The notes beneath the pieces were generated by a model. That model searched no databases, was not told where the DNA came from, and saw nothing but the letters and a program-made list of their open reading frames with translations. From an uncultured Rhodospirillaceae bacterium (GTDB lineage Bacteria; Pseudomonadota; Alphaproteobacteria; UBA8366; GCA-2717185), in contig CAJWOT010000004.1 of NCBI GenBank assembly GCA_913044215.1, forward strand, positions 1 through 44,743: a stretch of DNA of 44,743 nt. The letters run 5' to 3'. Positions 6,587 through 7,455 of the stretch are shown piece by piece (position 1 is the stretch's first letter; the number at the start of each line of letters is the position of its first letter). The position numbers and the translations under genes were made by a program.

Positions 6587-6612
6587 AAAAGGGCCGCCAC
6601 AAGGGCGGCCCC
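6587..6612 (-). terminator. Intrinsic terminator downstream of the GST gene
   Basis: GGGCCGCC (6591-6598) and GGCGGCCC (6604-6611) form a perfect 8-bp stem with a 5-nt loop. On the minus strand it is followed by TTTTCGTTT. It lies 25 nt after the GST stop and separates that gene from the crotonase/molybdenum hydroxylase operon. Confidence 0.82.
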
Positions 6613-6636: not shown

Positions 6637-7335
6637 TTATTCGGCCGCCGCCGCGGGATCCGCGAACAGCGATCCGACGTAAAAGCCCCGCCGCTTCAAG
6701 CTCTTCACGAACTCGTCGTTGAAGTGACTTACGACGGATCCCGTTATCGTATCGCTGGCCAACAACGCGTCGGACCAGGCCTGAACTCTTGGGAAATCAT
6801 TCAGGACACCGGTCTTCAGTTTGGCTTCGACGAAGGCGAAACGCTGCAAGAAAGGCGCATAAGCCGCATCGACGAGGCAGAGCTTGTCCCCGTTGAAATA
6901 GGGCCCGTCATTGTCGCGCTCCTTGCCGAGAGCCTCTTCGAGCTTGGCGATGCGCTTCGGTGCTTCTGCCAAACCCGCCTGCATCTCCTCTTCCGACTTG
7001 GTGTAGTAGATACCGCTGAGCCCCTTGGCGAAGTCCGGCACGAAATCAGTCCAGGCGCGATTGCGGGCGCGCTTGATGGGATCGGCCGGGTGCAGATGCG
7101 GTTCGACCATCTCGTCGAGATATTCCGCGATCGCGTTCGACTCGAACAACGGCACGCCGTCGACGGACAACACCGGCACTTTGCCGTGCGGCGAAATCTC
7201 CAGGAACCAGTCAGGCTTGTCTTGCAGGTTGATATATGTAACTTCGAATTCGATATCCTTGGCACGCAAAAGAATCACGGCGCGCTGGACCCAGGGTCAC
7301 GTGTACGAGCTGATCAGGTGGTATTTCACCGCCAT
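6637..7335 (-). CDS. Glutathione S-transferase, candidate selenoprotein (in-frame UGA at codon 13)
   Basis: The protein has a thioredoxin-like N-terminal domain and a helical C-terminal domain, 232 residues if TGA (7297-7299) is read through. It starts M-A-V-K-Y-H-L-I-S-S-Y-T, then TGA, then P-W-V-Q-R-A-V-I-L-L-R-A-K. In related GSTs the TGA position is the catalytic Cys of C-P-W/Y-V-Q-R. Later G-K-V-P-V-L carries the cis-proline and E-S-N-A-I-A-E-Y-L the glutathione-binding Glu-Ser. The ATG at 7333-7335 has GGAGG 7 nt upstream, so the segment before the TGA is a real translation start. A hairpin with SECIS geometry begins 11 nt after the TGA. Conventional calling gives only a 213-residue GTG-start form lacking the active site. 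A plain nonsense mutation is the alternative, but the rest of the gene is intact. Confidence 0.87.
7262..7299 (-). promoter_or_regulatory. Candidate bacterial SECIS element in the GST mRNA
   Basis: After the TGA (7297-7299) come 17 nt, then a loop beginning CGTGAT. The stem is GCGCGC (7280-7285) with GCGTGC (7262-7267), 6 bp including one G-U pair, and the loop is 12 nt (7268-7279). Known bacterial SECIS elements have a short upper stem, a G within the first two loop bases, and the loop about 16-37 nt from the UGA; all three hold here. The same TGA-N15-GCCGTGAT arrangement occurs in the UGSC gene at 12470-12501. Confidence 0.75.
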
Positions 7336-7360
7336 ACCGCTGCCTCCTAGCTATTGGTGT

Positions 7361-7383
7361 GTCGCTTTTTCAACTAAAGCGAC
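7361..7383. promoter_or_regulatory. Perfect inverted repeat upstream of the GST gene
   Basis: GTCGCTTT (7361-7368) and AAAGCGAC (7376-7383) are perfect inverse complements around a 7-nt AT-rich centre. The repeat lies 26 nt before the GST start codon, between the GST and the amidohydrolase stop. No T-run follows on the minus strand, so it is more likely an operator for GST control than a terminator of the upstream gene. The regulator is unknown. Confidence 0.55.
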
Positions 7384-7455
7384 AATAAGACCGGCGTCGC
7401 GCCCGTGTCAAAACAGACCGTTGCCCCGAGCCGATAATTTGAAGTTCGCGAGTCA

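Follow-up and report, generated by a model that had tools for sequence, protein, structure and literature searches.

Probable selenocysteine codon and gene context

The window, the whole stretch of 44,743 nucleotides that was analysed, carries on its minus strand a glutathione S-transferase (GST) gene interrupted by an in-frame TGA at codon 13. The following features were located at and around the gene:

6637-7335, minus strand: coding sequence of the putative selenocysteine-containing GST (Sec-GST), 232 residues, with selenocysteine (Sec) predicted as residue 13 and a TAA stop at 6639-6637
7297-7299, minus strand: in-frame TGA, codon 13, at the catalytic Cys position; TGA in 59 distinct orthologues
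7343-7347, minus strand: GGAGG ribosome-binding site, 7 nt upstream of the ATG at 7335-7333
6637-7278, minus strand: GTG-started truncated open reading frame of 213 aa in the ORF list, without the active-site residue
7262-7285, minus strand: SECIS-like hairpin, delineated by codon constraint, pairing counts and the bacterial SECIS model
7285-7280, minus strand: 5' arm of the hairpin, GCGCGC
7279-7268, minus strand: loop region of the hairpin, CGUGAUUCUUUU
7267-7262, minus strand: 3' arm of the hairpin, GCGUGC
7382-7411, minus strand: promoter-like site TTGACA-18-TATTGT on the 5' side of the GST, a consensus match only
6590-6612, minus strand: terminator-like GC hairpin with TTTCGTTT following, just 3' of the GST stop codon

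The twelve codons before the TGA encode M-A-V-K-Y-H-L-I-S-S-Y-T and those after it (CCC TGG GTC CAG CGC) encode P-W-V-Q-R, from where the frame stays open through an intact GST as far as the TAA. An earlier reading made from the sequence alone, which gave no strand, had described this arrangement of GGAGG site, ATG, twelve codons, TGA and intact GST, and all of it is seen in the sequence. It had also expected annotation to start the gene at a GTG beyond the TGA, and the GTG-started frame at 7278-6637 in the ORF list is such a case. Gene callers would shorten genes of this kind, with loss of the active site.

Between 2317 and 8295 the minus strand of the window encodes a WYL regulator, a glyoxalase, a molybdopterin (xanthine-dehydrogenase-like) subunit, an enoyl-CoA hydratase, the GST and an amidohydrolase. 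The amidohydrolase, enoyl-CoA hydratase and molybdopterin dehydrogenase neighbours lie beside the GST only in the closest relatives, within the genus. A conserved operon, as the sequence-only reading had supposed, was rejected because of this restriction of the common neighbours to the genus and because the GST is flanked by a promoter-like site of its own (1 found, 0.3 expected) and by a terminator-like hairpin, the latter a weak signal with 2 found against 1.6 expected.

Conservation of codon 13 and of the downstream hairpin

Orthologues were sought in 40 relatives and in a genome collection of 84,980 species. The search returned 59 distinct orthologue sequences of 56-100% identity, all with TGA at codon 13 and with otherwise intact reading frames, from many genera of Alpha- and Gammaproteobacteria, the latter represented by several drafts. 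All remaining homologues that align over codon 13 have TGC or TGT (Cys) there, both the more distant homologues and six orthologues nested within the TGA clade; L105 is truncated at codon 13 and lies outside this comparison. The Cys that had been proposed as a check on the reading was found at exactly this codon. An in-frame UGA that aligns with the Cys of homologues and is kept in relatives, one of the marks of a bacterial selenoprotein gene, is present. No further Sec-GST was found in 397 drawn Pseudomonadota genomes at E <= 1e-45 besides that of the source genome itself, indicating that the gene is rare.

Synonymous variation was gauged relative to the codon usage of the TGA orthologue genes. 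Among 101 conserved columns, the least variation was found at codons 17, 18, 19 and 20, which form the 5' arm and the start of the loop, and R24, in the 3' arm, ranked fifth-lowest. The probability of drawing exactly codons 17-20 at random is 1 in 4.1 million, and since all columns lie on one tree, common descent by itself does not account for the contrast. The consensus of the arms is GCGCGC/GCGYGC with an invariant GU in the loop region, and all six pairs (6/6) are possible in 56 of the 59 TGA genes as against 0 of 11 Cys genes.

The bacterial SECIS model, as summarised in one review, has an upper stem of 4-16 bp, an apical loop of 3-9 nt with G in the first two loop positions, a spacing of 16-37 nt and an MFE <= -7.5 (PMC13188914). 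The MFE fold of the hairpin (-11.7 kcal/mol, 19 nt from the UGA) extends the 6-bp stem by a lone G-U pair and has a loop of 8 nt, UGAUUCUU, in which G is the second base. It lies within these published constraints only thanks to the lone G-U pair, the omission of which gives a loop of 12 nt, above the 9-nt limit. Fold energy does not discriminate TGA from Cys genes, the latter falling within the energy limit as well. Single-sequence folds gained no stability over shuffled sequences (z 0.29 and 1.49, and -0.50 in the shortest stretch), and RNAalifold covariation on the stem was empty, its support being nearly nil because the arms hardly vary. For these reasons the weight was placed on the codon test, and it is the synonymous constraint that supports a function of the hairpin. 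The constrained hairpin lies inside the stretch, 7255-7300, in which a SECIS element had been suggested; a search with Rfam at gathering thresholds gave no match in the window.

Selenocysteine machinery and its association with the TGA codon

The source genome is a draft of 525 contigs, 93% complete. In it, selA (contig C79, 9840-10952) adjoins selB (C79, 11000-12886), both full-length and above family cut-offs, and selD is found on contig C23 with an in-frame TGA within the motif HGGG-U-GCK. The combination of selA, selB and selD expected of a bacterium with selenoproteins is present, and the absence of Sec machinery, which the sequence-only reading had named as grounds for abandoning its proposal, does not apply, with SelA, SelB and a Sec-type SelD encoded. 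The TGA of selD (L128, 1497-1560) stands at the active-site position and marks a second selenoprotein; downstream of it lies a hairpin, AGCACC-GUC-GGUGCU, with the loop starting 17 nt after the TGA.

A tRNA-Sec was not found in the source draft assembly, nor by ARAGORN on the selAB contig. The tRNA-Sec, with anticodon TCA, is present in most relatives with SelB and in the sister genome G001, which has a GST 98% identical to that of the source genome. The G001 contig that bears it has weak partial matches in the source genome (64-68% identity), none of them over the tRNA. As the sister genome has the tRNA and its contig is poorly represented here, the missing tRNA-Sec is taken as an assembly gap.

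Sec-GST and SelD were the only selenoproteins found in the source genome, formate dehydrogenase having been checked, short of a full selenoproteome survey. The usual Sec formate dehydrogenases carry an in-frame stop. The top-scoring match to formate dehydrogenase alpha in the source genome (L156, contig C76, 10743-12797) has none, and the other formate dehydrogenase matches are also stop-free.

SelB above the family cut-off was found in 14 of 16 relatives with a TGA-GST as against 4 of 24 others (Fisher p=1.3e-5) and, in a wider set, in 36 of 38 TGA genomes as against one of the six nested Cys reverters (p=1.1e-4), both p-values being optimistic since the genomes are related. Five of the six reverter genomes are without SelB, and in the sixth (L101) selB is broken by an in-frame TAG. 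This selB (L155, G441:C88:4500-9500, reverse strand) is otherwise full length; the TAG, close to base 1811 of the reverse complement, is possibly a recent inactivation or a sequencing error. No SelB was detectable in four TGA-GST genomes, G009 (64% complete), G011 (88% complete) and the small drafts L098 and L106 (2.8 and 2.4 Mb), a gap likely due to missing contigs. The genomes of the more distant Cys homologues L108, L110, L111 and L112 contain SelB, so that its presence in a genome does not imply a Sec-GST.

In a maximum-likelihood tree all Sec sequences fall in one clade of 66 (support 99/97), within which the six Cys sequences occupy three separate nested positions: L084/L090/L091, L060/L101 and L080. 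Four Sec/Cys label changes are required on the tree. Most simply, these sequences suggest one gain of Sec and about three Sec-to-Cys reversions, with the root and the long branch of L080 leaving room for doubt. That Sec-GST is a principal client keeping the whole Sec system in these Rhodospirillales relatives, with SelB lost or broken once the GST has turned to Cys, is a speculative and rather unlikely proposal.

Sec as the probable catalytic residue of an Omega/Tau-like GST

When the TGA was read through, Pfam GST_N_2 and GST_C_2 were both above cut-off, with PF13409 as the best domain. The N-terminal thioredoxin-like and C-terminal all-helical domains of the cytosolic GST superfamily are both present (Foldseek E 2.7e-14). 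In the structure model (pLDDT 92), residue 13 follows strand beta1 and stands directly before helix alpha1 (14-25); as in the Omega class, the catalytic Cys, here Sec, lies at the N-terminus of this helix and is followed by Pro. The Cys-Pro-Phe-x-Gln-Arg motif (CPF.QR) of Omega GSTO1, whose catalytic residue is Cys32, aligns with U-P-W-V-Q-R. Omega and Tau GSTs rank among the best matches both by sequence and by structure and are the top PDB structural matches; they differ in having Cys in place of Sec, and sequence identity is about 24-31%. The protein was not assigned to the Omega class proper, because Tau structures score equally or better. The Cys GSTs of Ruegeria, Vibrio, Bradyrhizobium and Rhizobium share the domain arrangement at about 35-42% identity, their Cys (codon TGC or TGT) aligning with the Sec. 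The enzyme is very probably an Omega/Tau-like GST in which Sec replaces the catalytic Cys.

The sequence-only reading had proposed a candidate Sec-GST with UGA at the catalytic Cys position, and the conserved TGA at the active site, the Cys homologues, SelA, SelB and SelD, and the constrained hairpin bear this out. We consider it highly probable (about 95%) that the gene encodes a cytosolic, Cys-active (Omega/Tau-like) type of GST with selenocysteine as its catalytic residue and a SelB-decoded UGA. The UGA at codon 13 would be decoded by SelB and Sec-tRNA-Sec, guided by the mRNA hairpin directly downstream, and Sec would be incorporated at residue 13. In Omega GSTs the catalytic Cys makes a mixed disulfide with glutathione. 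The selenol, presumably a more reactive nucleophile than Cys, may serve in glutathione-dependent thiol-transferase or reductase chemistry and not in classical conjugation.

Gene-calling convention would permit a start at GTG 7278, with the TGA as the stop of a short upstream frame and a truncated GST, without active-site Cys, as the product. This is very improbable: in the 59 orthologues the stretch ahead of the TGA shows conservation at the protein level (KYHLISSYT-like), with mean entropies over the ten upstream codons of 0.51, 0.38 and 1.21 bits at codon positions 1, 2 and 3. Variation that is mostly third-position indicates that these codons are translated and under protein-level selection. 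Cys homologues, moreover, read straight through codon 13, and the truncated form would lack both the beta1 strand and the beginning of helix alpha1. The fragmented draft state of the source genome might favour a pseudogene or a sequencing or assembly error, a reading of negligible probability that conservation has already refuted. The TGA recurs, in intact frames, in independent assemblies of many genera, and its recurrence across species excludes the sequencing error that the sequence-only reading had named among its refuting outcomes.

Read-through alone does not identify the inserted residue, and Cys is misinserted at Sec UGA codons in other systems at low selenium; UGA might accordingly be read as Trp or Cys through a variant code or a suppressor. 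This too is very improbable, and the reading as Trp was rejected along with the truncated gene and the pseudogene. Where the gene has a conserved Trp, at four sites, TGG is used in 59 of 59 orthologues, other likely genes in the window end in TGA, the exchange partner at codon 13 is always Cys, and the presence of the TGA tracks SelB.

As a Sec-GST, the gene is a further member of a family already described as 'GST-like selenoprotein' (COG0625/PF13409), with 4 sequences catalogued from the Sargasso Sea in 2005, 12 from GOS in 2008 and single accessions in two reviews (PMC1088965, PMC2398784, PMC9312934, PMC13188914). The precedent that the sequence-only reading had placed in marine metagenome surveys is to be found in the first two of these. 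Published GST-like selenoproteins include PPR62222.1 and MEK9676863.1. In the parts of these sources that describe the family, Sec stands where homologues have a conserved Cys, a CxxU redox pair is not listed, and a bacterial SECIS lies downstream in a PF13409 protein, as here; the domain and the Sec/Cys pairing agree with those of the Zhang and Gladyshev family. The published members are given there as a few metagenome sequences or single accessions without lineage or history, and the 2026 review describes the functions of such families as mostly uncharacterised (PMC13188914). A search of the open-access literature gave no description of this Sec-GST lineage, its history or its SelB-coupled reversions. 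The present set comprises about 60 orthologues, natural reverters from Sec to Cys, an ancestry and a hairpin delimited by synonymous constraint. In it the ancestry of Sec-GST can be traced, as can its RNA signal and its repeated losses alongside the selenium machinery. What selenocysteine brings to a GST, and whether a single client gene can hold the Sec machinery in a genome, become testable questions.

Among 28 provisional genes of the window, picked by eye from the ORF list, the stop codon is TAG in 15, TAA in 7 and TGA in 6, a preference for TAG that is unusual if the gene list is right.
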